DNA of 21,784 nucleotides from Chrysochromulina parva. Its lineage: Eukaryota > Haptophyta > Prymnesiales > Chrysochromulinaceae. Shown one piece after another: positions 1 through 21,539 of the stretch. Made by a program: the position numbers and the translations under genes. The notes beneath the pieces were generated by a model. The model searched no databases and had not been told where the DNA came from. It saw only the letters and a list, made by a program, of their open reading frames with translations. The DNA is taken from NCBI GenBank assembly GCA_002887195.1, contig PJAB01000704.1, positions 1-21,784 of the forward strand, read 5' to 3'. The stretch's first letter is position 1. Every line of letters starts with the position of its first letter.

Positions 1-3000
1 CAGGCGCGCTGCCACCGCATCGGCCAGACGAAGGTGGTCTCCGTCTACCGACTGATCACCAAGGGGACGTACGAGCAGACCATGTACGAGCGCGCCAACT
101 TCAAGCTCGGCCTCGAACAGGCCATCATCGGCCGAGGCGACTACGCTGCGCAGACGACTGCTGGCGCTGCGGACGACGAGGGCGGCGGTAGCACGAGTGT
201 CAAGGCCAAGGGAGGCAAGGTCAAGGAGGCCGAGCGGGCGGCGGAGCTCGAGGGGCTGCTCAAGCACGGCGCGCAGGAGCTCTTCACCGACGAGCACGAC
301 GAGCGCATCGCTGCCTTCTCGGCAGAGGACATCGACTCGATCCTCGGCCGTTGCGCCACAAAGAAGACGGGCACCGAGGAAGACGAAAAGGCGAAGGTCA
401 AGGGCACCTTTGCGCAGGCCGCGTTCGTCTCGCACAACGGAACCGAGGCACAGCTCGACCTCAACGATCCCGATTTTTGGACCAAGGTCCTAGGTGATGA
501 GGAGGCTGGAGGCGAGGAGGACGACGAGGCCGACTACGAAGACGAGTACGGCCGGCGGCGCTCGCGCCGCTCTGTCGGTGAGCCACAGCGCTTGGCGCCG
601 TCTTGGGGCGACGAAGCGCCGGCCAAAGAGGCCAAGGAGTCAAAGCGAAAGCGCGAGGCGAACGAGTGGAACCGCGCGCAGCTCAACGCTCTCTACTCGG
701 GCCTCTTCGCCTTCGGCTTTGGGCGCGCCGAGCGGCTGCATGCTCGTCTCGGCTTTCGCACTGTCGAGGAGGTGGAGCGCGCGAGCTTGTACACTGCGGC
801 GCTGGCCCTGCGAACGGCCTGCCGCCCCCCCGCTGATGAGTATGACAATGAAGTGCTCGAGTTTGTCGACAAGGCGAAGCAAGAGCTGCAGCCGCCCGAC
901 CCGGCGAAGCTCGCGCGCCTCTGGTTCTTCGTGACGACCGGCCAAGCGCTGCGTGCGGGTGAGGGGCGCCCGATTGCACCTGATTGCACCTGATTGCACC
1001 CGATTGCACCTGATTGCACCGGATTGCAACGGATTGCAACGGATTGCAACGGATTGCACCGGATTGCACCGGATTGCACCGGATTGCACCGGATTGCACC
1101 CGATTGCACTGGATGGCAACTGATTGCAACCGTTTGCAATTGATGGTACCTGCTTGCACCGGATGGCAGGAGAGGAAGCACCCGAGGTGCCCGAGGAGGT
1201 GAGCCGCACGCAGCCGCTCTCCGCGGCCACATGGTACGACACCCGCATCATCTCGAAGGCGAAGCAGCTCACCGCGCAGCTCATCGACCTGCGCCGGCTG
1301 CACGCCGCAGTCGAGGCGGCTCCCTCCAGCGGCTTCGTGGCGCCGCTCTTGCCGATCAAGTTTGCACGCCCCGTCTTCACACTCGCCGAGACCAAGGCGG
1401 CCGCCGCTGACTCTGAGGGCGATGCTAACGTGGTCGAGCTCGACGACGAGGACGAGGACGCGGTGGCCGCTGCGGCGCCATCGGCGCCGGATGAGGCGTC
1501 GTCTCGGGCGCCGGATGAGGCGCCGTCTCGAGTCCCGGTTGCCTCGACAGCCGCGGTCGCAGGCATGGTCCCCATCCGCACGTGGACTAGTGCCGAGGAC
1601 GCGGCGTTGCTCTTGGGCGTGCACACGCACGGGTATGCCAACTGGGCGGCTATATTGTCCGATGCCTCGCTGGGCGTGTTTGCCGACATCGCTCTGGAAG
1701 GTGTCGAGCTTCCCATCAAGACTTCGCGTACCACGTCGCCCGTCGCAGACGAATCGGTCGCGGTGCCCATGGAGATGGACGAGGAAACGCCCGCGACGGC
1801 GCCTGACGGCACGCGCGTCGATCTCGACGATCTCGCCACGCGCCATCTCGACGGCAACGGTGGCGGCGCTGGCGGCGCCACGCGTCTCTACTATGTGGAG
1901 CCGCGCGCGATGCTGCGCCGCCTCAAGCACCTGCTGAACCACCTGCCCATCCTCGGGATTGGCGGCGTGTCCAGCGGGGCGGCGAGCGCTTCGTCTGGCG
2001 GCGCGTCCACTTCTACCAAAGACTCTGATGGCGGCGCCGCGCCGAGTAGCGTGAGCGCCCCTGGTTTCGCGATGGACGACTGTGGCGAGTGCGTATTTTG
2101 CCTTGACAAGCCGAAGTTCGGGGGACCTAACACGAAGCGGCAGAAGTGTGTGCTCAAGCAAAACGAGGCCAGCCATTCGAGCGGCGCCGGTGGCGAGGAC
2201 GCGGTGGCGGCGGCGGAGCGCGAGTCGTTTGTGGTCGCTCTCTATCCGGATGGGTTTGACAGGATGCGCCCGTCGGAGATCACGGGGCTCGAGGGCAACC
2301 ACGCCGCCGGCGCCCCCGCACCCAAGAAGGGAGAGGGCAGCGGCGGGCCGGGTGGGCTTCGCGCGCCGGGCAGCGAGCCGGTGTGCGAGGAGGAGCGGCT
2401 CGCGCGCGAAGAGCTCCGGTCGCTCATACACGAGGCGAAGGCGTGTAAGGATCCCGAGCGTTTGGCGGAGCTGCGCCGGCAGGCAGGCGAAGCTAAGGAG
2501 CGTGGGCGCAAGGCAGCGAGTGTTGCAAAGGAGCGTGAGAAGATCGAGCGGGATGCGGCCAAGGAACGTGAGAAGCGTGAGAAAGCAGAGCAGATTGCGG
2601 CCAAGAAGCAGGCTGTGCGGGACGAGCGCGACAGGGCGACCGTGGCCAAGTATCTCGATGAGCTTGTGATGCGGGCGGCCAAGATGCATGTGCACGAGAT
2701 GGAGCGTGAGGAGAGGGAGAGGGTGAAGGCCGCCCGCCGTGCCGAGAAAGCGCCGCGTGAAGCCGAGCGCGAAGAACGCAAGCGGCGGGCCGAGCAGGAG
2801 GAGGCTGCCCAGAAGGCGGCGCTCGAGGCGGAGCTCGAGCGCAAGGAGAAGGAGAAGGCGGAGCTGGAGAAGGCTTTCAAGATGCGACACATGCTCAAGG
2901 TCCGCGCCCTCGAGAAGAGCCGCGTCGTGGACGCGAGCCTGTGGACGATGGTCGAGAAAAACGGCTCGGTGCGCGTGCGGCTCAAGCTGTGCCTGGCGAA

Positions 3001-5153
3001 TAACATCCAGCACATCACGCGGCTCGCCGACGGCATCGCCAAGATGATGAACGAGTACGACTATCGGAAGAAGCACGAGGCGTTCAAGAAAGGGCACCGC
3101 TGGATGACGCTGATGGAATCGATCGAGCTCGGGCTGCAGCGCAATGTTGGCGAGGCATTCGCTGTGCGCTCCTCGTGCGGCTGCGGCGGCTGGGCCAAGG
3201 TGCCCTGGATCGCTGTGTCTGACCCGCTCGAGTCCACCCAGGCGGGCCTGTACATGCAGTACCTCTTCCGAGCCGACATGTCCGCCGTCTACTTGTGCCT
3301 CGGGCAGGGCACGTCGAAGCTCAAGGCGGTGCTCGGCTCCTCTGCAGCGATGCGTCATTTGGAGCATGTGGCCAACTTCGTACGCTCCAAGTTCAGCGAG
3401 CTCACGACGGCAGGCGAGCTCGAAGGCTGGGACACCAACGGCGAGATCGACCTGCGCGCTGACGGCGGGCTCGCGGGTGACTACGAGAAGGCATGCATCA
3501 TCTCGCGCATGTACGAGTACGGCGCGAACCTCGACGAGGCCACGCTGCTCAAGGAGCTCGACGAGATGCTCACCCTGTACTTGGCTGTGCTCTCCGACCC
3601 TAAATACCAGCTCGACATCAAGGCGCCAATCGACGAGCAGCTGCAGGAGAGGGGGTTCAAGAAGGGAGCCAAGGGGCGAAAGAGCGACGCCGGCGGGTCC
3701 GCTGGCCAGAAGCGTGCTGCTGCGAGGAAGGCGAGCACCACTATGACCCCGGGCGACGACGAGAGTAACGACGACGAGGGCGGCGTCGACGGCACGCCCG
3801 GCGCCAGCGATGCCAAGCGCCGCCGCGTGAGCACGGGCAGCGCCGCGAGCGGCGGCGGCTCGGCAGGCAAGACAGCCAAGGGCGCCAAGGGCAAAGGCGC
3901 CGTCCCGGCAGCGCCCAAGGGCAAGGGCGCCGCCGCGCTCGCGAATAAAGAGGCGCTTGAGAGGTTGGCGTATGATTGGCCGATCGGGATGAGCGTGGAG
4001 GTGCTACAGGATAGCGCCGAGCACTTCGGCGCCTGGTTCGAAGCGCGCGTACTTGATCACAAGGCGCCCGATAAGATACGCGTGGAGTATGAAGAACTCC
4101 TCGCGGACGGGGACGACGTCGACGAGATGGACGATACCGCGCAGATGCCCGGGCTGCAGCAGCTCGAGTTTGTGCGCAAGGTGCGCCCTCTGCCGCTGCC
4201 ACCTGTTGACGCTGGCTGGGCGGCCAAGCTCCGCGTGAATGATACCGTGCAACTCTCGTTCATCGGCGGCTGGTGGGACGTGTTGGTCACCGAGGCGCTT
4301 CCGGAGCTCGCGCCGCCCCAATGGGTGGTCAAGTCGGTTCACTTTGAAGCAACCCATACAGTAGACGCGAGCCAGCTGCGCCCGCAGCCCAAGTGGTTTT
4401 GGGACGTGCCGACCAAGAGCTGGGTCGTGCGGGGTCGCGAGGCCGAGATCATCGAGCGTTTGGAACAAGCGCGCGCGCGGGTTGCCAAGGACGAGAGCGC
4501 CCCGGAGCCAGAAGTCGAACAGGCTACAGGCGAAGCTGGACCCGCCGAAGCTCTTATCGCGAAGAAAATGTCACCGCGGAAGGCCAAGAAGAGCGCACCG
4601 GACGAGCCAGACGACAACCCACAGCCGACCGAGAAGCCCGTCAAAGGCTATCGCGCGAAGGCTGCGGGCGGGCGGCGCGAGGAGCGCTCCAAGCTCGTTG
4701 CCGCGCCGCACTCATCGCCGCCGCCCAACGGCTGGCAGTGGCCTCTCGAGGGCGATAAGGTGGAGGTTGAAGTCGCGGCAAGCGAGGACGCGCCGGCTGT
4801 GTGGGTGCCAGCCGAGGTGATTGCCGTCCTCGTCGATGGCACTTTCCAGGCACGCATCGTGCTGCCCGACGGCTCAGATCAGTGGGAAGATTGGTTTTCG
4901 TGGAAAGAAGAGGGCTCGGACTGGCGCCGACAGGTGCGCAAGGAGCCCTGTGAGGAGGGAGCTGTGATGACCTCTGATGACCTCTGATGACCTCTGATGA
5001 CCTCTGATGACCTCTGATGACCTCTGATGACGGCAGGTGCACATAAAGCCCGGCGGAGGGCACGCCGCGAGCACGGTTGGCAAGGTTCCGCGCATGGCGG
5101 CCGTGGACGACGACGATGACGAAGAGGAGGTGGGGATGGATACCGAGATTTGA
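1..5153 (+). CDS. CHD6-9-type chromatin remodeler with CXXC, MrcB_N-like and Agenet/Tudor domains (5' end outside window)
   Basis: Exons 1..958, 1170..4933 and 5037..5153 join in phase (phases 1 and 0) to about 1,612 residues, entering in mid-gene. The start is the last SNF2 helicase motif (ARCHRIGQ, residues 2-9), then the CHD bridge (YERANFKLGLEQAII; TFAQAAFV; DLNDPDFW) typical of the CHD6-9 clade. There follow a SANT-like segment (TWTSAEDAALLLG, about 457-480), a CXXC finger half (CGECVFC, KFGG, about 623-650), a Lys/Glu/Arg-rich probable coiled coil (725-893), and an MrcB_N/DUF3578-like domain (about 909-1130; WAKVPWIAV, YLFRADMSAVYL, LGQG). Next come a basic, NLS-like stretch (AKRRRVS), tandem Agenet-like modules (about 1250-1404) and a third Tudor-like module (about 1510-1590), ending in an acidic tail. 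The family uses ATP to slide nucleosomes in the nucleus; the accessory domains should target it to particular DNA or histone marks (inference). The stop is TGA at 5151-5153. Confidence 0.88.
959..1169 (+). other. Intron 1 of the CHD gene (phase 1, GT-AG)
   Basis: The reading frame entering at base 1 stops inside a repeat tract, and the next long frame is offset. A GTGAGG donor at 959 and a GGCAG acceptor ending at 1169 restore the frame: G|GA gives Gly, and protein continues as ALRAG-EEAPEVPEEV. Almost the whole intron is a 10-bp tandem repeat. Confidence 0.85.
971..1169 (+). repeat. 10-bp tandem repeat filling CHD intron 1
   Basis: There are 20 consecutive units of about NGATTGCAMC. They are nearly identical in the first two thirds and decay toward the 3' splice site (GGATGGCAAC, CGTTTGCAAT, TGATGGTACC, TGCTTGCACC). 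The last unit, GGATGGCAG|G, carries the AG acceptor. The 10-bp step is kept without slippage over the full tract. Confidence 0.95.
4934..5036 (+). other. Intron 2 of the CHD gene (phase 0, GT-AG; alternative donor at 4964)
   Basis: The frame would stop in a TGATGA-rich repeat. Joining CAG|GTGCGC (donor at 4934) to the CGGCAG acceptor ending at 5036 gives WRRQ-VHIKPGG and runs to the stop at 5151-5153. A second in-phase donor, GCT|GTGATG at 4964, would keep ten more codons (VRKEPCEEGA). Both are phase 0, so the sequence alone does not choose between them; I prefer 4934 because its donor context is better. Confidence 0.75.
4964..5030 (+). repeat. 10-bp tandem repeat in CHD intron 2
   Basis: Six perfect copies of CCTCTGATGA (4971-5030) follow a partial GTGATGA copy, and the CGGCAG acceptor comes directly after. 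The unit length equals that of intron 1, but the unit sequence is unrelated. Confidence 0.95.
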
Positions 5154-5616: not shown

Positions 5617-7704
5617 TCAGATCATCTGGACGACTTTCTCGCCCTCGCCTTCAACAGCCGTATCTTCCACCTTCTCCCGCTGCTGAGGCGTTGAGTCGGC
5701 GGAGTCGGCCTTGTTATTCTTGGCTTTCTTTGCATCCTTAGCAGCCTTGGCAGCAGCCGCTTTGGCAGCCTTGGCAGCAGCCGCCTCCTCAGTCTTCGCC
5801 TTCGCCTTCGCCACCGCCTCCTCCTTCTTCGCTATTGCCGCCGCCTCCTTTTCCGCCTTAGCAGCGGCCACTTTCTCCTTTTCCGCCTTGGCAGCTGCCT
5901 CCTTGGCAGCTTTGGCAGCCGCCGCTTTCTCCTTCTTGGTGAGTGGCTTGGCTGGGGCCGATTGGCTCTCAGCAGCAGCCTCCACCGCAGGCGCTGCCTC
6001 CTTCGTACTCATATCAGGGGCCATGTCATCGGCACTCGCAGGTGCCTCTGCCGCCTCGGCCCCTGCTGACTCACCCTCGGCCCCTACTGCCTCACCCTCG
6101 GCGGCGACGGGAGCGACATCTTCCACTTTGCCTACTTTGAAGAGGGTATCCCCTTTATCTCCCTTGGCTCCCTTGGCAGGCTTCTTCTTCTTGGCGATCG
6201 CCTCATCCCTCAGACGCTTCGCCTCCTCTATCTTCGCCTTCGCCGCCGCTGCCGCCTCCTCCTTCTTCGCCTTTGCCGCCGCCTCTTTTTCCGCCTTAGC
6301 AGCGGCCACTTTCTCCTTTTCCGCCTTGGCAGCCGCCAGTTTCTCCTTCTTGGTGAGCGGCTTGACTGGGGCAGGCGCCGGCTCTCCCGCCTCCGCCACC
6401 GCAGGTGATGGCGCTGCCGCCAGGAGGCGGTCCGCCACCGACTCATCCTTAGCTGCCTTGGCCGCCTCCGCTGCCGCCTTAGCCGCCTCCGCCCTAGCCG
6501 CCGCCGCCACAGACGCGTCACGCGCTCCCTCGTCACCCGGCGAAGCCGCAGCGGCTTCGGCCAAGGCAGACGCCACCGCCGCCAAATGAGCCGCCTCGGC
6601 CGCGGCCTTTTCTGCCGCCTCGGACGCCGCCGCCGCCTCCTCCTCCTCCGCCACTCGAAGTGCGTCCAATAACGGTTCGATCGCCTTCGCTGGAGTAGGG
6701 GGCGGTGCTCCTTTCCCGACCACAGCTTCGCGCGCCTCGATCGCATCGCGGCACCACGGGTGCGATCGCACGCCGTCCCACGTCGGTCGCTCCGTCGGCT
6801 CCATTTTCATCAACGACTCGATCAGATCCTTCGCCTCGGCCGAAAGGTCTGACCATCGCTCCGGGGCTGCTCCAGCGTGGTCGACCGACGTGGTTTCGAC
6901 GATGCGCTTCACGATGACGCCGCTGGTGTCCATCGTCGAGCCGAAGGGAAGCTTGCGTGTGAGCATGAAGAAGAGCAGCACGCCGAGCGACCACATGTCG
7001 CTTGCAGGGCCATTGTATCCGAGGCCGCTGCCGAGGATCGAGACGGCGCCCTTTTTGCCCGTCGCCTCAGCATACCCTGCGGACTTGAGCACTTCGGGCG
7101 CACAGTAGTGGGCGGTCGCGGCTAGCCCATTCACGTCACCAGCAGAAGTGTCAGCGCACGAGCCGAAGTCGATGAGCTTGTACTCGGTGGAGTTGACATC
7201 GATGGTGCACAGGTTCTCAGCCTTGATGTCCCGGTGCACCAGCTTGCACTTGTGCAAGTGCTCGACCGCGAGCACCACGTTAGCAAAGATGCCTTTCGCA
7301 AGATCTTCCGGAAAGAACCTTCGATTTGCGAGGGCTCCAAGTAGGTCGCCCCCTTTGAGTGGCTCCAGCACGATGAAAAACGACTTGGCGTCGCAACAGG
7401 TCTCGATGAGTCTCACGATACACGGATGTTTGACCTTGCCACGAAGCAGCTCGACCTCGGTTTTCAACGTGTCGAGCAGTTCGCTCTTGGGATTCAGCAG
7501 CACCTTTAGTGGCAGTACTTTGAGTGCTACTTCCTCTTTGCCGGGGATGTCGCGCCGGGAGGCAAGCAATACAGCTGAGGAGAAGCCTGTGCCGAGCTCC
7601 TCATGCATTTGATACCTTTTCTCGATGTTTTTGATGCGGACATCGGTAAGCTCATCGAGCAGGAGCCGCCGGTCCTTCGAAGCTTTGCTTGGACCTGCAC
7701 CCAT
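5617..7704 (-). CDS. CAMK-like serine/threonine protein kinase with Ala/Lys/Glu-rich tail
   Basis: Intronless, 695 residues from the ATG at 7704. Kinase domain about 32-318: glycine loop LGTGFSSAV (38-46), ATP lysine in VALKVL (K62), helix-C Glu in KTEVELL, catalytic HRDIKAEN (157-164), DFG (179-181), APE (202-204), DMWSLGVLLF. All catalytic residues are present, so it should be active. The order resembles calcium/calmodulin-type kinases, but no EF hands follow. Residues 2-7 (GAGPSK) fit an N-myristoylation site, implying membrane attachment. After about residue 335 the protein is an Ala/Lys/Glu-rich, probably helical tail with two copies of a KPLTKKEK-started block. An in-frame ATG at 7833 would add 43 Arg-rich residues. 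Substrate unknown. Confidence 0.88.
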   Translation of the reverse strand: MGAGPSKASKDRRLLLDELTDVRIKNIEKRYQMHEELGTGFSSAVLLASRRDIPGKEEVALKVLPLKVLLNPKSELLDTLKTEVELLRGKVKHPCIVRLIETCCDAKSFFIVLEPLKGGDLLGALANRRFFPEDLAKGIFANVVLAVEHLHKCKLVHRDIKAENLCTIDVNSTEYKLIDFGSCADTSAGDVNGLAATAHYCAPEVLKSAGYAEATGKKGAVSILGSGLGYNGPASDMWSLGVLLFFMLTRKLPFGSTMDTSGVIVKRIVETTSVDHAGAAPERWSDLSAEAKDLIESLMKMEPTERPTWDGVRSHPWCRDAIEAREAVVGKGAPPPTPAKAIEPLLDALRVAEEEEAAAASEAAEKAAAEAAHLAAVASALAEAAAASPGDEGARDASVAAAARAEAAKAAAEAAKAAKDESVADRLLAAAPSPAVAEAGEPAPAPVKPLTKKEKLAAAKAEKEKVAAAKAEKEAAAKAKKEEAAAAAKAKIEEAKRLRDEAIAKKKKPAKGAKGDKGDTLFKVGKVEDVAPVAAEGEAVGAEGESAGAEAAEAPASADDMAPDMSTKEAAPAVEAAAESQSAPAKPLTKKEKAAAAKAAKEAAAKAEKEKVAAAKAEKEAAAIAKKEEAVAKAKAKTEEAAAAKAAKAAAAKAAKDAKKAKNNKADSADSTPQQREKVEDTAVEGEGEKVVQMI
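5843..6369 (-). repeat. Internal duplication in the kinase tail
   Basis: Two blocks, about 5843-5951 and 6280-6369, share long identical stretches of the TTCCGCCTTAGCAGCGGCCA type and encode KPLTKKEK followed by runs of AAAKAEKEK. A spacer rich in Ala, Glu and Gly separates them. This indicates a tandem duplication of a helical Ala/Lys/Glu module. Confidence 0.75.
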
Positions 7705-7918
7705 GGCGATTCGCGGCGCCTCCCCTCTCTGCACCACCACCACGATTCCAAAACTCGCGCGAGTCGAGAAGTTTTGGAGAAGTCGACAAGTTTGTCCCTT
7801 CGCGAAGAGGCCGCGAGCCACGATTGACGCCATCAAGTTATGTTTGCGCAGATTATGTTTGCGCGTCTGAGTGGGAAACCTCGCGTTGTTTTTGGACCTG
7901 CGGAGTCGTGACGAGTTG
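7705..7918. promoter_or_regulatory. Presumed bidirectional promoter, kinase / DCX-like gene
   Basis: This 214-bp gap separates two divergent start codons (7704 minus, 7919 plus), so both promoters or 5' UTRs must lie here unless one gene starts further upstream. I see no TATA box. The direct repeat TTATGTTTGCGC (7838-7849 and about 7853-7864) is the only obvious element. Confidence 0.4.
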
Positions 7919-8491
7919 ATGTCCGTGGGCGAAGAGATCGATCGACGGTCCATCCCTGGGTTATCGCGCCGGGCTTATCGCAACGGCAACGCTGCGGGTA
8001 ATGCTGCGGTTGACGCTGCGGTTGACGCTGCGGTTGAAACGCGCGCTGCGCGGCCTCCGACCTGGCACTCACGCTGCTCGGAGTGTGTCGTCTACGTGGT
8101 TGGGGCATTCACACTGGTGTTCTTGCTCATATGGGCGCGCGAGGTTTACAATGATGAAGACAGCAACCTGAACGGCTCAATATTGGGTGCACCAGGACAG
8201 CTTCGAGTGCAGGTCTACAGCAACTCGCCGCAGGGCCACGCGGCCGACGGCCAGATAGTCATCGTGTCAAGCCTCAATGGTCTCCTTAGAGAGGCATCGG
8301 CGCTGTTCGATGTCCAAATTGATCGTTTGTACACACAGGCTGGTGCAAAAGTCAGCGAGCTGTCCGTGCCGTCCTCAGGTCGCTCGTGCTTATATGATGG
8401 CACAAGATGCGTTTACGATGGCTCAAGCCTTTTTGCGGCGAGCGAAGGAGCGGCCTTCGTTGCCCGTGAGAGCGGTTCCGATAGCGAGTGA
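7919..8491 (+). CDS. Single-pass membrane protein with doublecortin-like domain
   Basis: 190 residues from the first ATG. Residues 1-50 are polar and contain an NAAVDAAVDAAVE repeat. One transmembrane helix is at about 57-73 (VVYVVGAFTLVFLLIW), without a cleavable signal peptide. Residues 95-181 have the doublecortin (DCX) layout: LRVQVYSN, then a GQIVIVSSLNGLLREAS helix region, DRLYTQAGAKVSEL, and SLFAASEGAAFV (compare the family's VR-LYT-DG and the closing GE-F). DCX domains bind tubulin or act as ubiquitin-like scaffolds; which side of the membrane this one faces is unclear. A Cys-containing insert (CLYDGTRCVYDG) sits where the last strand is expected. The assignment rests on pattern only. 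Confidence 0.65.
   Translation: MSVGEEIDRRSIPGLSRRAYRNGNAAGNAAVDAAVDAAVETRAARPPTWHSRCSECVVYVVGAFTLVFLLIWAREVYNDEDSNLNGSILGAPGQLRVQVYSNSPQGHAADGQIVIVSSLNGLLREASALFDVQIDRLYTQAGAKVSELSVPSSGRSCLYDGTRCVYDGSSLFAASEGAAFVARESGSDSE
7991..8038 (+). repeat. 12-bp coding minisatellite, four units
   Basis: Four units of GCTGCGGTTGAC, the first and last diverged, encode the NAAVDAAVDAAVE stretch before the transmembrane helix. Because 12 is a multiple of 3, copy-number changes keep the frame. Confidence 0.9.
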
Positions 8492-14062: not shown

Positions 14063-15652
14063 TCACGATGCCATCTTGAGCTTCGTGATGTTCTGGACGA
14101 TGACCGTCGCGCCGCTTGCCCTGAGAGCCGCCTCGGAGTCGGCACCGGAGAGGACGCCAATCGCCTGCCTGCAGCCGGCATTGAGAGCCTCGCCAATATC
14201 CCGCTCCGTATCGCCTGCCTTCGCGACTTTGCTCACGTCCTCCACGCCGAGCTTCGCCATGAGCGCGTGGACCATGTAAGGCGACGGCCGGCCACGTGGC
14301 ACGTCCTGCGCCGAGATGTACCCGTCCACAATCTCGTTCAGCTTGAGGCGGTCGACTATGGCCTGCTGTAGCCGGCGCGGGTAGCCGGTGTTGAGTCCAA
14401 CCTTGCAACCACGCGCGCGCAGCGTGGCAAAGTAGTCGGGCAGTGACGGGTCGATGAGGGAGAGGCCCGAGCCAGGGGCCAGGTATGCGTCCTCGAGGCT
14501 TTTCTCAAAACGCTTGTTGATCACCGTCGTGAGCTCGGCGAGCGCCGATGGCGCGAAGTCGACGCCGCGCTGCTTGGCTGCGAAGTGTGCGACAACTTCC
14601 TCTTTGGCTGCGCCGTGCCAGGGGTGCATGTCAGCCTCGCTGACCTCGAGGCCGGCGGCGTTCATGCTCTCGCGCAGCACGATATACACGAGCCCGCCCT
14701 CGTCCACGGTCGTGCCCGCCATGTCGCACACCAACAGCTGCGTGTCCGCATGCAGCATGGGCGGCGCCGGCGGCGGCGCGGCACACCGCAAGTCCCGACC
14801 GGCGAGCTCTTCAAGGTAGCGGACGGCCTCGGTGTAGTCGGCGGTGCGGCCCACGCGCTCAGTAGCTGCGGCCACGGCGGCCTCGACCGCGGGCAGTAGC
14901 GTCGCCTGTGGAAAGTGCGCGCCCGCAATCGCGGTCGCGTTGCGCACGTCTTTGAGCATCAACCCAAGCTCGAACCCATAGCCAAATTGTCCAGTCAGCA
15001 CCTCAGTCGGCAGGCGCACCTGCGTCTGGAGGGAGCGACCAGAGGAGCCATTGATGGCTGCAAGCGCCGTGGCGGGCTCTACGCCGAAGCCGCGTAGCGC
15101 GAGCAGCCCCTCACCCGCGAGCATCAAGTGTCCCACGTTCAGCAGGTTGTTGACAGCTTTGACGGCGTGCCCTGACCCAATGGGGCCCTGGTGCACAATG
15201 CTCTTGGCGAAGCAGGAGACGATGTCGCGCACGCGTTCCACTGCTGCCGCATCGCCGCCAGCCATTGCCGTAACTGTGCCCGCCGCAGCGCCCGCAGGCC
15301 CGCCGCTCACCGGCAGATCGACGTATGCACAAGGGAGAAGGCGGGCCACATCGGCGCTCGTCACCGGGTTACCGGAGGTGCAATCGACTATGATCGCACT
15401 CTTCTTGAGCGTGGGGACGAGCTGCTCAACCACCGTGCGTACCTCGTTCGTGGTCGGAAGCGACAGAAAGACAACATCGGAATTTCGCCCGAGCTCTGCG
15501 AGGGAGGCCGCCGGCACCGAACCGCTCTCGGCAGCGTGCTGCTGCATCTTTGCTGCGGCGATGTCAAAGGTGGACAGTGGCGGGCGAGCGCGTGCAACAC
15601 GTGCAGCCAGCGGGCCGCCCATGGCACCAAGTCCGACCCAGCCGATCCTCAT
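14063..15652 (-). CDS. Fusion: 3-hydroxyisobutyrate-dehydrogenase-like enzyme plus phosphonatase-like HAD hydrolase
   Basis: One uninterrupted frame, 529 residues from the ATG at 15652. Residues 1-290 are a beta-hydroxyacid dehydrogenase: NAD(P) loop GLGAMGG (7-13), substrate motif DLPVSGG (112-118), catalytic Lys in GSGHAVKAVNN (K165), and INGSSGRS, nearest by eye to L-threonate/tartronate-semialdehyde-type members. A Pro/Ala linker (about 291-300) leads to a HAD domain of the PhnX-like clade: nucleophile motif DMAGTT (D310), cap-domain Lys in HGAAKEEV (K350, position of the Schiff-base Lys), NTGYP (421-425), Arg in GRPSPYM (R455) replacing the usual HAD Lys, and acidic motif GDTERD (480-485). 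Both active sites look complete. PhnX splits the C-P bond of phosphonoacetaldehyde; the substrate here, and any channelling between the domains, is inference. No targeting peptide is evident. Confidence 0.88.
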   Translation of the reverse strand: MRIGWVGLGAMGGPLAARVARARPPLSTFDIAAAKMQQHAAESGSVPAASLAELGRNSDVVFLSLPTTNEVRTVVEQLVPTLKKSAIIVDCTSGNPVTSADVARLLPCAYVDLPVSGGPAGAAAGTVTAMAGGDAAAVERVRDIVSCFAKSIVHQGPIGSGHAVKAVNNLLNVGHLMLAGEGLLALRGFGVEPATALAAINGSSGRSLQTQVRLPTEVLTGQFGYGFELGLMLKDVRNATAIAGAHFPQATLLPAVEAAVAAATERVGRTADYTEAVRYLEELAGRDLRCAAPPPAPPMLHADTQLLVCDMAGTTVDEGGLVYIVLRESMNAAGLEVSEADMHPWHGAAKEEVVAHFAAKQRGVDFAPSALAELTTVINKRFEKSLEDAYLAPGSGLSLIDPSLPDYFATLRARGCKVGLNTGYPRRLQQAIVDRLKLNEIVDGYISAQDVPRGRPSPYMVHALMAKLGVEDVSKVAKAGDTERDIGEALNAGCRQAIGVLSGADSEAALRASGATVIVQNITKLKMAS

Positions 15653-15837
15653 GTTGGACAAGGAAGGCTGCGTAGCCTACACACGCGACACCGACGAGGA
15701 AGAGCGAAGAGAGCCGTCGGCCTTTCCGTGTTTGGGCTCGTACCGGCATTTGCGACGAAACACGCAAGTGGGTTGACGTGCGGATAAGGACACTTCACAC
15801 TCAGAACATACCGGGTACACCCGGTCGACAGGTCTCG

Positions 15838-18222
15838 TCACCCCGGCAACCGCTTCTTCAGCAGGTCGAGCACCGCCGTCGCCCCACGCTGCTGCACATT
15901 CTGTGGGATGGAGCGAATGGCGTTGCCCACGATCGTCAGATTCTGAAGCACCGGGAGCAGCGCCAGCTCAGCTGGCAGCATGGTGACGTCGTTGCACGAG
16001 ATGTCGAGCGTCTGCAGCTTCTGGAGCGGCATCAAGTGTTCCACAGGGAGCTCGCGGATGCCATTCTGCTGGACGTGCACCTCTCTCAGCCGGGGGAAGA
16101 GCGCGAGCGGCGGCAGCGCACCCAGTCGGTTCTCACCGAGGTCCAGGTACTCGAGTGGCGCGGCGGCACCGCCCCCAGGCATGTGCAACGAGGCGGCGGT
16201 GAGCTTGTTCGCACAGAGTGAGACAGTCCGGAGCCGCGGACAGAGCCAAAGCGCAGCAGGGACCTCGCCGAGTACGTTGCGGTCAGCATTGAGCTCCGTG
16301 AGGGACGAGAGCACCACGCCAACGAAGCCAAGGTCGCGAAGTTGGTTATGGGCCACACGCACGGCCTGCAGCTCTGGGCAGCTGCCCAAGTCGAAGGGCA
16401 GTAGGCTGAGCGCATTCTTGCTCACGTCGAGGCACCTGAGGCCAGGGATGAGCCCTGAGAGGCCGTCGGGGAGTGCCCTGAGTTGATTGGACGCCGCGAG
16501 GATCGTATGCAGGGTCTCGGGGTACCCGTCCGAGGGCAGCGCCGTTAACTTGAGCCCATCGACCTTGAGCTCTGTACCATCTTTGATCACGTGGCTGTAC
16601 AGCCCGTCGAGCGCCGAGGCGGGCGGCGCGGGGCGCGAGTTCGTCTCCGTCTGGAAGGGAGCCGAAGCAGAGACGCTGTGCGTGGGCCGGCTGGGCGGAG
16701 GCGCGGGCGGCGGCTGCAGCTGGGCCGGCCGTTGGAGCGCGGGAGAGGGTCCGCGAGATGAGGTGCGAGATGAGGACGCTCGCTCGCTCGTCGGTTGTGA
16801 TGGGGGCCGATTGTAGAGCGCATCGAATCCCCTCTCACTGGCTCGACAGTCTGCGCCACGGGGTGGGGCCATACGGCCGAAGCCACCGCCGCCGCCGCCA
16901 GCGCTGTAGGCAGCGCCGCCGCCATAGTGTAGCATCTCCTGCTGCTGCTGCAGGTACTGTTGCTGCATCGTCGCCTGCGGGTGCTGCTGTTGCTGCGCGG
17001 CGTAGGGCATCACCTGCTGGTGCTGGTGCTGGTGCTGCTGGCGGTGCTGCTGGTGCGGCGTCTGCGCGGGGCGGTTCTCGTCGCCGAGCGCGCCGAGCGA
17101 GCGGTCGATTTGCATGGGCGCCATTTGGCCGCGCATGTCGCCGTCCCATTGCGGCGATGTGTCCACGATCTTGCCGCGCAAGTGGGCGAGTAGCTTGGGC
17201 GTCGGCCCGTTGAGGACAGCCGATGGCATCGTGCGCAGCGGGTTGCCGCTGAGCGCGAGCTTGTTGAGCGAGAGGTTGCCGAGCAGCGGTGGCACCTCGC
17301 GCAGCTCGTTGCAGCTCAGGTCCAGGCGCGTGAGAGAGGCGCAAGCACTCAGCTGCTCCACCTCAGTCAACTTGTTCGAGCTAAGGTCGACGGTCGCGAG
17401 CTGCGCCAGGTAAGGCATCCCGCTCGGCAACACCCCGAAGATATTGAAGGGTGCTGAGAGCTCCTGCAGGCCGGTGCACCCTTGCAGCTCGAGGGACTCG
17501 AGGCGGTTGTTCGCGAGTAGCAACGTCCGAAGGCTAGGCACGCTCAGACGCAGCCGGCGCAGCCGATTCTCCGAGGCATCGAGGCTCACGAGCGGCGGAG
17601 GCGACTGGACGAGGTCGGCGGGCAGCTCGATGAGCTCGTTCTTGGCGAGCATGAGCGTCTTGAGCGCACGCATGCCGCCAAGTCCCGACGGCAGTGTCCC
17701 AAGCCGATTGTGTGACAGGTCGAGCTCCACCAGATAGATGAGACCGGCGAAGCTGGGCGGCACGGCCGTGAGTGCATTATGGCTGGCCACCAGCTGCACC
17801 AGCGGCGGCAGATTGAAGGCGCCGAGCTCGGGCAACTGCGTTAGCTGGTTGTGAGCTAGCATGAGCTTCTTGAGTGCCGGCAGCTCGGCGAGCACTGGCG
17901 GAAGCACGCGCAGCCGGTTGTTTGTCGCGTCGAGTTGCTGTAGGTCCTCGAGCGTGCCGAGTTCGTCCGGGAGCGAGATGAGCTCATTTTGCGAGACGTC
18001 CATGGTATCGAGCGTCTCACGCGTCTCCCACCACGCCGAGCCCTCAGGAAGCACGACGCTGCCGATATTGCAACACAGCGGCGGGAGCATCGTGAGCCCG
18101 CGTGCTTGAAGCTTGAGGTGGCCCGAGAAGCGTGCTTGGATGAATGCCTTGGACAGATTTTGATGACCCAGAACAAGCTCGGGCTCTGAAGAGGCTGCCG
18201 CTCCAGCACCACGGCGCTGCAT
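15838..18222 (-). CDS. LRRC40: LRRC40-type leucine-rich-repeat protein
   Basis: Intronless, 794 residues from the ATG at 18222 (the frame stays open to 18414, but that part looks like 5' UTR). The N-terminus (QNLSKAFIQARFSGHLKL) and WWETRETLDTMDVSQNEL match the LRRC40 layout. A first array of LPxxLxxLxxLxxLDLSxN repeats covers about 75-345 and ends in LSGNPLRTMPSAVL plus LLAHLRGKIV. A Gln/His-, Gly- and Ser/Pro-rich linker follows (about 357-537), then a second LRR array (about 540-775) ending GNAIRSIP, RGATAVLDLLKKRLPG. The double array with similar caps is the reason for calling LRRC40. Such proteins are intracellular scaffolds; the precise role is unknown. It lies 185 bp downstream of the start of the fusion gene, on the same strand. 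Confidence 0.83.
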   Translation of the reverse strand: MQRRGAGAAASSEPELVLGHQNLSKAFIQARFSGHLKLQARGLTMLPPLCCNIGSVVLPEGSAWWETRETLDTMDVSQNELISLPDELGTLEDLQQLDATNNRLRVLPPVLAELPALKKLMLAHNQLTQLPELGAFNLPPLVQLVASHNALTAVPPSFAGLIYLVELDLSHNRLGTLPSGLGGMRALKTLMLAKNELIELPADLVQSPPPLVSLDASENRLRRLRLSVPSLRTLLLANNRLESLELQGCTGLQELSAPFNIFGVLPSGMPYLAQLATVDLSSNKLTEVEQLSACASLTRLDLSCNELREVPPLLGNLSLNKLALSGNPLRTMPSAVLNGPTPKLLAHLRGKIVDTSPQWDGDMRGQMAPMQIDRSLGALGDENRPAQTPHQQHRQQHQHQHQQVMPYAAQQQQHPQATMQQQYLQQQQEMLHYGGGAAYSAGGGGGGFGRMAPPRGADCRASERGFDALYNRPPSQPTSERASSSRTSSRGPSPALQRPAQLQPPPAPPPSRPTHSVSASAPFQTETNSRPAPPASALDGLYSHVIKDGTELKVDGLKLTALPSDGYPETLHTILAASNQLRALPDGLSGLIPGLRCLDVSKNALSLLPFDLGSCPELQAVRVAHNQLRDLGFVGVVLSSLTELNADRNVLGEVPAALWLCPRLRTVSLCANKLTAASLHMPGGGAAAPLEYLDLGENRLGALPPLALFPRLREVHVQQNGIRELPVEHLMPLQKLQTLDISCNDVTMLPAELALLPVLQNLTIVGNAIRSIPQNVQQRGATAVLDLLKKRLPG
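16937..17057 (-). repeat. CAG/CTG-rich low-complexity tract (poly-Gln/His) in the LRRC40-type gene
   Basis: Interrupted CTG/TGG/TTG triplets on the plus strand encode runs such as QQHQHQHQQ and QQQEML in the linker between the two LRR arrays. The triplet step keeps the frame open, and the length probably varies between strains. Confidence 0.85.
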
Positions 18223-19155
18223 CTTTATATCTTTCGGAGGTGAACGTCGAGTTCGACCCGGCGAAGACCACGAACCGTTCGACTCTCCTGCCGCCGGGAA
18301 GAGGGTGACCTTGCCATTCACACCGGCTTGAGTGTGAATAGCGAGAGATGCGTGAAAAGTTATCGTGAGGCGGACACCCCGATCCGGTGTATTGACCGAC
18401 GGTGTTGCTCTCACAATGGACTATCTTTTTTTGATCTGCTCACTTTCGTTGTTCTTCGGGTAGTGGCTACGTACAGAGGTTGAGAGGTACAGTACATGTA
18501 GTGCGGGGTCGAGTCTTCGCTGCGTCGCGTTACGATCAATTGGTTACGATTCAGTATTATTGGCATTTTTCTTATCATCAGAGAGCTGCTGGGCCCTGCT
18601 GCGCTACCTAATGAAGCCTTTTTTGCTCGACATAACGCCACTCCTTTTATTGCTCGACACCAACGCGCAACGCCAACGGTAAACGCTAAAAAAAGTACAA
18701 AACGCGAGTTTGCCACGTAGCCACGACCATTCATGCCCAAAACGACGCGTTTGGCCCTCCTATTGAACTTTGAAGGCAATTGTTTGAAGGGCGTCTGACC
18801 CAGAATTGGTCTGACCGGCGCGATGAAGGTCGATGCGAAAAGGAGGTTAATCAGTTAGCCTGAAAACACGACCTCGGCAACCACGGTCCAACGCTCTTCG
18901 CTCCTTCTTGCATGTATACGATCTACTTGCGCTTGTGTCTGCACACGGGCGGCTTCGGGCGGGGCGGGGCGGGGCGAGAGTACACGCATCTGGCTCTGCT
19001 CTCTCTCGCCCGATTTCGCCCACTGCACGCATCGGCATCGCGGCACATGCAATGACGATGGCCTGCGGCATCGCACTCGTCGGTCCCTTACCATCATGTG
19101 GCATGTGGCATGGCCAAACGATATGGTGCCTCGACGGGCGCCTGATAGCGCCGCC
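18223..19155. other. Long intergenic region, LRRC40-type / SEC1, with an AT-richer core
   Basis: No gene is supported here. From about 18420 to 18880 the sequence is clearly richer in A/T than its neighbours (TTGATCTGC, TTCAGTATTATTGG, CTAAAAAAAGTAC), and from about 18955 a GGGCGGGGCGGGGCGGGG box appears. Frames of 80-120 codons on both strands show no recognisable protein. The LRRC40-type 5' UTR and promoter and the SEC1 3' UTR should both lie here. Confidence 0.5.
18957..18976. promoter_or_regulatory. GGGGC-repeat / GC box
   Basis: Consecutive GGGGC units form a G-tract run with four GGGG blocks, which could fold as a G-quadruplex or act as a GC box. It lies about 180 bp past the SEC1 stop and over 700 bp upstream of the LRRC40-type start, so any role is uncertain. 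Confidence 0.35.
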
Positions 19156-21144
19156 TCAAACCTTCGTTACGGAGGCGCCGCCGACGCCGCCGGCGCCGCC
19201 GGCGCCGTCGAGCTGCTTCATGGCCTTGAGGCCGAGCAGGTAGGCCTGCGGCGTGAGCATCGCGGTGGTGCCGATGATGATCTCGCGACCTGGGTACATG
19301 ACTCTCACCTCATGCAGGGCGCGCAGCTCCGAGTAGCACAGGCCGCCGAGCATGATGATGATCAAGCGCTTGCCTGTCGCGGGCACCTCGACCGGCACGG
19401 CCGCGGCCTTGTCCTTCGCCTTCGCGGCCTTCTCCGCGGCCAGCTCGCGCGCCCGCTCGACGAGCGCCTTCGGCTCCGTGGTATAGGGATACTCGACCAG
19501 CTCGAGGCCCTTATCGAGCAAGTCCCCACACAACTGCTTGAGAGGCGGTACGTAGCGAGAGACGTCGTACGTGGCCTCCTCAAAATCGCGCAGCACCTTC
19601 TTCTTCTCCTTCTTCTCCTTGGTGCCCTGGAGCATCGTCACGTTCAGATAGAAGAGATTGAGGATCGCCACCTGGTCCTCCGGCGAGATCCCGGCGAGAT
19701 TGAGCAACTGGCGTCGCTCGTCCTGCTTGATGCCGTCCTGCGTGGCGACGTAGATCATGAGCAGACGCATCTTGTCCTCGGGCGAGAAGGGGATGTCCTC
19801 GCGCTCGAGCAGCGCGCGCAGGTCCGTGAGCGACTGCTTGCCGTACGCCTTGCCAGACGAGTCCTCGCGGCAGGCCATGTTCTGCTCAAGCGTGGCAATC
19901 GCCTCGAGGCAGTGCTTGTTGTACTTGGTCATGAGCTCCTGTGTCACCGCCATGTGCAGCGAGTAGCGCGCGTGCGTTTCTTGGAATTTGGGTAGCCCCC
20001 GCAGCCCCGCCGTCATGTCCTTCAGGTTCTTGGACTTGTCCTTCGAGAGCAGTTTGGCCGCCTCGGGGTTGTCGGCGAGGAACTGCTTGAACTCGGTGTG
20101 CAGGAGCGTGCCCAGGTCGGCGATGTGCATCGAGCGCAACCGCGTCCAGAGCGGGTCCGTGTCATTGAGCAGCACCGTCTTCGACTGCTTCTCGTTGTTG
20201 TTCGCCACGAAGTGGTACGTGTACTTGTCATCGTGGATCGAGAGCAGATCGTGCGCCATCGCCTGGTACGTGAACTCATGCACCAGCGGCGAGATCGCAT
20301 CGTAGGAGCGGTCGAGGAGCAGCAGTGTGGTCTTCTCTTTCTCCTCGGGCGTTCTCGTGACGAAGGACGCGCCCGACGCCGCGAGCTCGGTCAGCTTCCC
20401 CTGCAAGAGCTGCGCAACCGCCGACGCCACGGGCCTCGTCGAGTGCCGAATGAGCGGTATCTCGCCCATCGAGATGCACAGGGTCGCGAGCATCGCGGCC
20501 AGCCTGTGCTGCTCCTGCAGCTTGGCCTCGGAGGCCGCGGGCATGTCTTCGGGCGCGAAGAGCGTGGGCAGCGACTGCGGTGAGTCCAAGACGAACGCGT
20601 TGCTCTCGGTGCACACGAACTCGAGATTAAGCTCCTTGAAGCTCTGCACATAGTTGATGGCATTGGAGGCCTTGATCTTGCCGAAGAGGGCGTCGCTCAC
20701 GTGCGAGCTGAAGAAGAGGTGACAGCTCTTGTACATTGGCTTCTTCTTGTCCTTGAAATCGGTGATCAGCCGGTTGACCGACTCGATCGTCGGCTGGATG
20801 AAGTAGGCTGCGGGGAGGTCGGGCAGTGGCTGCCGCTGCAGGTACTCACCGCTCGGCTGCTTCATCGTGATGTTCTCAACGACTGTGATGTTCTCCTCGA
20901 GCAGCTGGGACATTTTGAACACGGACGAGAGCACACGCACCGTGAAGCTGTCGGCGCACATGACGATGCCTGCCGCCTCTCCCGCCATGCTATGCATCAT
21001 GTCACTGAGCAGGCGAGCCTTGACGGTTTCCCGAAGGTTGAGCGATGCAGCATCGGATTTGCCGAACGTCGAGGGCGCTGGGACCGACGCCAGTGGGGGA
21101 GGGGGCATGCTGCCGCCTGGCTCGTAGTGGCTCGAATACGTCAT
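19156..21144 (-). CDS. SEC1: Sec1/Munc18-family syntaxin-binding protein
   Basis: Intronless, 662 residues from the ATG at 21144, the usual length for the family. SM proteins clasp syntaxin and SNARE bundles to drive vesicle fusion at the plasma membrane. Diagnostic stretches are LLLLDRSYDAISPLVHEFTY (about 273-292), LPKFQETHARYSLHMAVTQEL, SRYVPPLKQLCGDLLDKGLE with EYPYT (about 530-553), and near the C-terminus LIIIMLGGLCYSELRAL and EIIIGTTAMLTPQAYLLGL. These fit the exocytic Sec1/Munc18/KEULE branch better than Sly1, Vps33 or Vps45. The first 35 residues are Pro/Ser-rich and precede the usual start of domain 1. A Lys/Ala/Glu-rich insert sits at about 555-585, and the tail is Gly/Ala-rich. 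The frame is open upstream of 21144 but only from non-ATG codons. Confidence 0.93.
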   Translation of the reverse strand: MTYSSHYEPGGSMPPPPLASVPAPSTFGKSDAASLNLRETVKARLLSDMMHSMAGEAAGIVMCADSFTVRVLSSVFKMSQLLEENITVVENITMKQPSGEYLQRQPLPDLPAAYFIQPTIESVNRLITDFKDKKKPMYKSCHLFFSSHVSDALFGKIKASNAINYVQSFKELNLEFVCTESNAFVLDSPQSLPTLFAPEDMPAASEAKLQEQHRLAAMLATLCISMGEIPLIRHSTRPVASAVAQLLQGKLTELAASGASFVTRTPEEKEKTTLLLLDRSYDAISPLVHEFTYQAMAHDLLSIHDDKYTYHFVANNNEKQSKTVLLNDTDPLWTRLRSMHIADLGTLLHTEFKQFLADNPEAAKLLSKDKSKNLKDMTAGLRGLPKFQETHARYSLHMAVTQELMTKYNKHCLEAIATLEQNMACREDSSGKAYGKQSLTDLRALLEREDIPFSPEDKMRLLMIYVATQDGIKQDERRQLLNLAGISPEDQVAILNLFYLNVTMLQGTKEKKEKKKVLRDFEEATYDVSRYVPPLKQLCGDLLDKGLELVEYPYTTEPKALVERARELAAEKAAKAKDKAAAVPVEVPATGKRLIIIMLGGLCYSELRALHEVRVMYPGREIIIGTTAMLTPQAYLLGLKAMKQLDGAGGAGGVGGASVTKV

Positions 21145-21539
21145 GTCCGGTTGTTTCTTCTTTGAACCCCACTGCCGATCGCGGCATGGCACGGACACAG
21201 GGTGAGTGAGCTCGAGCCACGCCGCGAGAGGGCTGGGCCAGTGGGAGGTGCGCACAGCTTGGCTAGCTGAAGCCGAGGGATGGGCTGATGAGGCGTGAGC
21301 GGCGCACCATCGGACGCGCGCAAAAGGCGCGACGGTCGCACTCTGGGCTCGGACGGTGCCGAGTGCTGATGAATTGCATCATCAGGAGAAAGAGTGCGAG
21401 AAACAATGTATGGTCGCGGCGGGTCATGCACGTTCCTGATACATGTAGTCACTGACAGTGTTCAGCCAGTTATATGAATGTGCGGTCCCCCTGCCTGGTG
21501 CCTGCGCACACGCAACACCAACCTAACGCACGCACCTGA

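Follow-up and report, generated by a model that had tools for sequence, protein, structure and literature searches.

An MrcB_N domain of bacterial restriction type in a predicted CHD-family chromatin remodeler of the haptophyte Chrysochromulina parva

At the beginning of contig PJAB01000704.1 of the haptophyte Chrysochromulina parva (assembly GCA_002887195.1; 45 Mb, 2199 contigs) lies a gene that, judging from its sequence, is the C-terminal part of a chromatin remodeler of the CHD family, in which the end of an SNF2-type helicase is followed by an MrcB_N domain and by tandem Agenet modules. The window analysed here is the entire contig (C704), with a length of 21,784 nucleotides. This architecture can be regarded as established by sequence, structure, and comparison. 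In bacterial Type IV (McrBC-like) proteins, MrcB_N flips cytosine from the helix and inspects it for modification, according to PMC3874153. In the best-supported reading, to which a probability of roughly 0.55 is assigned, the action of the remodeler is guided jointly by a modified cytosine that is flipped out and by a methylated histone. The analysis shows the identity and fold of the domain, its location in one gene with an SNF2/CHD helicase, the absence of a GTPase, the position of the eukaryotic-type domains as one clade among bacterial ones, and the conservation of the two methyl-contacting positions; the mechanism goes beyond these and is a prediction. The broader proposal is that of a eukaryotic chromatin-protein family built on a restriction-derived, base-flipping reader of cytosine modification, with a fold unlike SRA and firmly coupled to a CHD motor and to a histone reader of the H3K9 type; a single polypeptide would then read DNA and histone marks jointly and move nucleosomes in response. 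This proposal is put forward more tentatively, as falling a little short of even chances. The open-licence literature searched yielded no description of a remodeler that contains MrcB_N.

Gene structure and domain order

A single open frame on the forward strand (1124-4987) codes for 1287 amino acids (P0001), along which Pfam gives the order HTH_CHD1_Hrp3, zf-CXXC, a long stretch rich in K, E, R, and A, MrcB_N, and Agenet, as had been read by eye in an initial annotation of this DNA (SANT-like, CXXC, MrcB_N, and Agenet segments in one frame). The corresponding exon (1170..4933), delimited by the open frame, the Pfam matches, and the splice ends, thus carries the HTH/SANT segment, half a CXXC finger, a charged linker, MrcB_N, and the Agenet modules. 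The SANT-like HTH_CHD1_Hrp3 segment (PF23588; 1580..1711, P0001 residues 153-196) scores 29.8 bits against a cut-off of 27, and an overlapping Myb match stays under its own cut-off.

Upstream lies an exon (1..958, forward strand) in which the last part of the SNF2 helicase C domain (QARCHRIGQTK...) is followed by the adjoining downstream region, the contig beginning within the gene. The protein from this frame (P0002) alone gave no Pfam match; the exon aligns with the metagenomic proteins P0006 and P0008 and with a paralogue on contig C829, to the helicase of which positions 1-75 are 76% identical across 25 residues. The two exons are separated by intron 1 (959..1169), a GT-AG intron of 211 nucleotides in phase 1 that keeps the frame and consists mostly of a 10-bp tandem repeat, GATTGCACCG, in 19.7 copies (972-1168); an alternative acceptor 3 bases downstream also preserves the frame. 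P0006, P0007, P0008, and the C829 protein align through the junction, in agreement with the in-phase intron by which the initial annotation had tied the MrcB_N frame to a helicase. Further downstream, a probable second GT-AG intron (4934..5036), suggested by its splice ends and with an acceptor 12 bases further that also fits, holds another 10-bp tandem repeat, TGATGACCTC, in 6.7 copies (4965-5031), and the frame after it provides a probable last exon (5037..5153) with an acidic tail and a stop codon.

The spliced product on the contig amounts to 1612 residues. Its alignments to independent metagenomic proteins span the splice junction, each in one stretch: to P0006, a protein of 1823 amino acids with SNF2, helicase C, MrcB_N, and Agenet domains (residues 1-1441, 41% identity, 930 bits), to P0008, of 1585 amino acids (residues 1-1408, 34% identity), and to P0007 (residues 250-1395, 35% identity); the C829 protein aligns in several pieces. 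These alignments, together with the single frame of the C829 paralogue, speak for one gene instead of two and support the location of MrcB_N in the same gene as an SNF2/CHD-type helicase.

Type of remodeler

Of the remodeler proper, the helicase end and the HTH_CHD1 segment alone fall on the window contig, without the chromo part. The C829 paralogue is encoded by one stop-free frame of 3170 residues, which may include a short in-frame intron, for example near the PHD, and comprises PHD (23.9 bits, slightly below the cut-off of 24), chromo, SNF2, helicase C, CXXC, HTH_CHD1 (24.8 bits, below the cut-off of 27), and MrcB_N (109.5 bits) domains; it therefore possesses the chromo domain and SNF2 ATPase of a CHD remodeler. 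When its helicase was compared with solved chains, CHD4 ranked first (441.8 bits) and CHD1 second (418.4 bits) among 60 of 82 matches listed, none of which was named CHD6-9, so that this subfamily was barely compared. A BRK domain in the C-terminal half is a mark of the CHD6-9 subfamily, and no BRK match was obtained in P0001 (E <= 1) or in the C829 protein (E <= 0.1). Because of these nearest chains and the missing BRK match, the CHD6-9 label of the initial annotation has been dropped. The resemblance is to CHD3/4/5 (Mi-2) and CHD1, since C829 has chromo, SNF2, and helicase C domains with PHD and HTH_CHD1 below cut-off, and the window HTH_CHD1 exceeds its own; the MrcB_N, CXXC, and Agenet additions differ from the textbook forms of these remodelers.

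Identity and origin of the MrcB_N domain

The MrcB_N domain, also termed ADAM (PF12102), occupies 3041..3586 (forward strand; P0001 residues 640-821), inside the block that had been proposed at 2935-3600, with 115.7 bits against a curated cut-off of 25 (E 2.4e-33, profile positions 1-180 of 183). P0001 scores 135.6 bits with a profile built solely from the 28 bacterial-type MrcB_N rows, and the top score of 1000 shuffled domains with that profile was 6.0 bits; these values indicate that the domain order is real and not a product of chance. The fold agrees with that of McrB-N, at 13-16% identity to the E. coli domain on structural alignment, and profile and model together identify the window domain as a true MrcB_N. 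McrB-N is DUF3578 according to PMC3874153, and the tie to E. coli McrB-N rests on this equation, on the fold, and on a motif shared in the alignment to 3ssc. Unlike E. coli McrB-N, the window domain has Cys at the Y41 position, is not accompanied by a GTPase, and shares its gene with a remodeler. As had been claimed, no GTPase/AAA domain matched in P0001 (E <= 1), nor did one match in the C829 protein; the gene thus does not encode a Type IV restriction protein of the McrB kind as far as the AAA domain is concerned, no search having been aimed at McrC.

Protein searches returned nine proteins from 8000 scored candidates sharing most words and nine from 720 candidates, 16 of them different; P0003 and P0004 match the window protein at 97-99% identity. 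From 48 domains, a 42-row alignment was obtained by removing four short or broken ones (L031, L038, L040, L041) and these two near-copies, leaving 14 eukaryotic-type and 28 bacterial-type rows (12 and 26 distinct at under 90% identity). The eukaryotic-type label derives mostly from Agenet, HTH_CHD1, SNF2, or bromodomain neighbours, and for P0010, P0011, and P0016 from domain similarity alone; the bacterial-type rows come from named genome loci in 26 cases and from metagenomic proteins in two. In the tree, rooted at the midpoint, the 14 eukaryotic-type rows form one side of a branch with 100/100 support and a length of 1.63 changes per column, and a further branch unites them with 15 bacterial-type rows against the other 13. 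Seven of 30 bacterial loci were scanned, six encoding MrcB_N-AAA_5 and one MrcB_N-HNH, and all five scanned in the group of the eukaryotic side were MrcB_N-AAA_5; P0018 likewise combines MrcB_N with AAA_5, and P0017 combines it with a Pua-like domain. The bacterial MrcB_N-AAA_5 proteins (Desulfotomaculaceae, Ectothiorhodospiraceae, and others) are tree neighbours, the identity of each eukaryotic-type row to the closest row of bacterial type amounting to 32-37%, but they are restriction-type AAA fusions and not chromatin proteins. A single transfer from an McrB-like protein would be the simplest reading of these sequence relationships. The claim that a restriction-derived reader was recruited to a remodeler therefore stands as regards the grouping of the domain among bacterial MrcB_N and its sharing of a gene with a helicase, whereas its binding role stays a prediction.

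MrcB_N also occurs in other company. P0014 and P0015 combine it with a bromodomain (that of P0013 is under the cut-off), and P0010 and P0011 are long MrcB_N proteins without further Pfam domains. The lead-in to MrcB_N in P0015 appears by eye to be the same as in the CHD type, so that this protein is possibly a fragment of a related remodeler. As a separate observation, the C-terminus of long proteins of the P0010/P0011 kind looks AP2-like by eye, with no Pfam match at E <= 10.

Residues of the cytosine pocket

Profile alignment to 3ssc places window Y710 and L714 at McrB Y64 and L68, which contact the methyl group according to PMC3874153. The Y64 equivalent is kept in 14/14 eukaryotic-type and 27/28 bacterial-type rows and the L68 equivalent in 14/14 and 24/28, respectively. 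Window W695 stands at McrB W49, which we take to be a pocket residue and whose equivalent is present in every row (14/14 and 28/28). The invariance of Y64 and L68 across eukaryotic-type rows that are so distant from their bacterial relatives points to continuing selection on the pocket. At the position of McrB Y41, the window has C687; Cys is found in 13 of the 14 eukaryotic-type rows, Ile in that of C829, and Gln in 17 of the 28 bacterial-type rows.

Tandem Agenet modules and the CXXC finger

The tandem Agenet modules (modelled stretch 3956..4525, forward strand) were borne out by structure prediction, though the first module (3986-4186, P0001 residues 955-1021; 42.6 bits) alone passes Pfam. 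An AF2 model from six aligned C-terminal stretches (mean pLDDT 74.2, pTM 0.64) shows paired Agenet barrels of the AGDP/ADCP1 kind, and Foldseek returned NtAGDP3 (E 1.5e-8) and ADCP1 AGD1-2 (E 2.1e-8) as best matches, AGDP1 also being found and several targets having been solved with H3K9me2. Over the first ten Foldseek rows, the TM-score by target was 0.72-0.84 and the identity 19-25%. The tandem fold is thus shared with the plant H3K9me2 readers ADCP1, AGDP1, and AGDP3, whereas the window pair ends a remodeler, is distant in sequence, and has a ligand that is predicted from the fold. A possible third Tudor-like module (4736..4933, forward strand) was read by eye.

The CXXC match (2075..2158, forward strand; P0001 residues 318-345; 35.6 bits, profile positions 19-46 of 48) covers half a finger, namely the second cysteine cluster, in which KFGG and RQKC are retained, aligning to the second half of the KMT2B, CFP1, and MBD1 fingers; the first CGxCxxC cluster and the final Cys of a complete finger are missing. 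The finger claimed initially was accordingly present in its second half only, and the suggestion that the protein senses two cytosine states is weakened by this truncation, although the C829 copy is nearly full (5-48 of 48). In P0007, the match covers positions 18-46. Across the genome, the alignment to the profile begins at position 17 or beyond in 21 of the 34 CXXC matches, some possibly cut by introns; among the matches, half fingers with the second cluster alone thus outnumber fuller ones and appear to be common in this genome, often within large open frames. CXXC follows HTH_CHD1 in the window gene and precedes it in P0007 and C829, which implies that it moved or was gained more than once.

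DNA methylation setting

Six C5-methyltransferase matches were found in the genome, three of them near the full profile (1-323, 1-322, and 1-298 of 324), and these three long frames carry PCQ and ENV, which we take to be C5-methyltransferase motifs; 5-methylcytosine (5mC) is therefore possible in this genome. Two further C5-methyltransferase-like proteins (C1451:6107-6910 and C6:52661-53308) have PHD-like and Tudor-like sequence nearby, and by eye CC replaces PC, presumably the catalytic motif of these enzymes, so that both may be inactive or divergent.

Proposed mechanism and alternative explanations

In the proposed mechanism, MrcB_N would have passed from a bacterial McrB-like protein to a eukaryote and would still bind modified cytosine (5mC, perhaps N4-methylcytosine or 5-hydroxymethylcytosine) in host chromatin, while the tandem Agenet modules, with their H3K9me2-reader fold, would bind a methylated histone tail. 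Acting together, the two could position the ATPase, or switch it on, at sites bearing DNA as well as histone marks, and nucleosomes there might then be spaced or closed, making the protein a cis counterpart of remodelers that rely on a separate methylation-linked partner.

Several observations weigh against this reading. The link to E. coli McrB-N is weak by sequence (profile E 0.52), a single-sequence search gave no match to it, Foldseek gave none at E <= 0.001 (best 4.8e-3), PF12102 matched none of 14 control genomes, E. coli named among them, and the strong matches are uncharacterised bacterial MrcB_N proteins. A search of long proteins with the C829 domain returned none at E <= 0.001 among 1507 candidates. 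The genome already has SRA and MBD readers (two and four matches), the observed/expected CpG ratio of 1.06-1.17 in seven stretches indicates no depletion and hence no deamination sign of methylation, and nucleosome-scale CG periodicity was absent in 240 kb of the genome (z 1.34). Finally, the replacement of Y41 by Cys or Ile, where bacterial rows usually have Gln, means that specificity may differ.

This last point leads to the main rival, a serious though distinctly less probable explanation, by which MrcB_N was kept as a general DNA- or protein-binding scaffold of changed specificity, for unmodified DNA, N6-methyladenine, or a damaged base, or without base flipping. The Y41 position is unlike both E. 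coli and the usual bacterial state, the eukaryotic-type clade sits on its long branch, and five MT-A70 matches on three contigs show that enzymes methylating adenine in DNA or RNA are present as well; the invariance of the Y64 and L68 equivalents argues against such a change. A role of the fusion in detecting foreign or mobile DNA by an unusual cytosine modification and in closing the chromatin of such DNA, as a nuclear remnant of a Type IV restriction system that lacks the nuclease, is improbable. Such a role would suit the restriction-type architecture of the bacterial relatives scanned and the occurrence of MrcB_N beside other chromatin modules such as the bromodomain, but none of 136 pattern matches in viral contigs encodes a relative (a result of little weight where hosts are concerned), nothing matched by Pfam in seven other or joined window frames indicates a mobile element, and the CHD context suits general chromatin work. 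That two neighbouring genes or an assembly chimera were misread as one gene, as might be suspected from a contig that begins inside the gene and from the failure to find the N-terminal half when it was searched for, is very improbable and largely refuted by the junction-spanning alignments and the presence of the whole order in the C829 frame.

Other features of the window

The neighbouring frames, all on the reverse strand and identified by Pfam, encode a protein kinase (5620-7974), a dehydrogenase-HAD hydrolase fusion (14066-15676), a leucine-rich repeat protein (15841-18420), and a Sec1 family protein (19159-21378). In a CHD-like gene elsewhere in the genome (L068, contig C1777), translations hint by eye at introns with TGATGACCTC-type repeats.

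Implications

To our knowledge, eukaryotic readers of modified cytosine are few, comprising SRA, MBD, and some zinc fingers. The gene described here presents a Type IV restriction module turned chromatin module, found beside a CHD helicase and beside a bromodomain, and the fusion of a bacterial anti-phage domain to a chromatin motor suggests a new way to read DNA methylation. Among the closest known systems is CDCA7-HELLS/DDM1, in which, according to PMC10538959, the methylation-linked SNF2 remodeler HELLS works with CDCA7 as an activator; there, activator and remodeler are distinct proteins and a different SNF2 subfamily is involved, whereas the candidate reader of the window gene is part of the same polypeptide. 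Methylation in another haptophyte, Emiliania huxleyi, occurs periodically and only in the linkers between nucleosomes, as described in PMC9246332 and PMC9998398, and a hypothetical link between such a pattern and the window protein may be drawn by analogy. If the reading is true, a remodeler equipped with a flipping reader of its own would connect DNA methylation directly, at the molecular level, with the placement of nucleosomes, and the question of how methylation and nucleosome spacing are tied in Emiliania huxleyi would become testable through such a protein.
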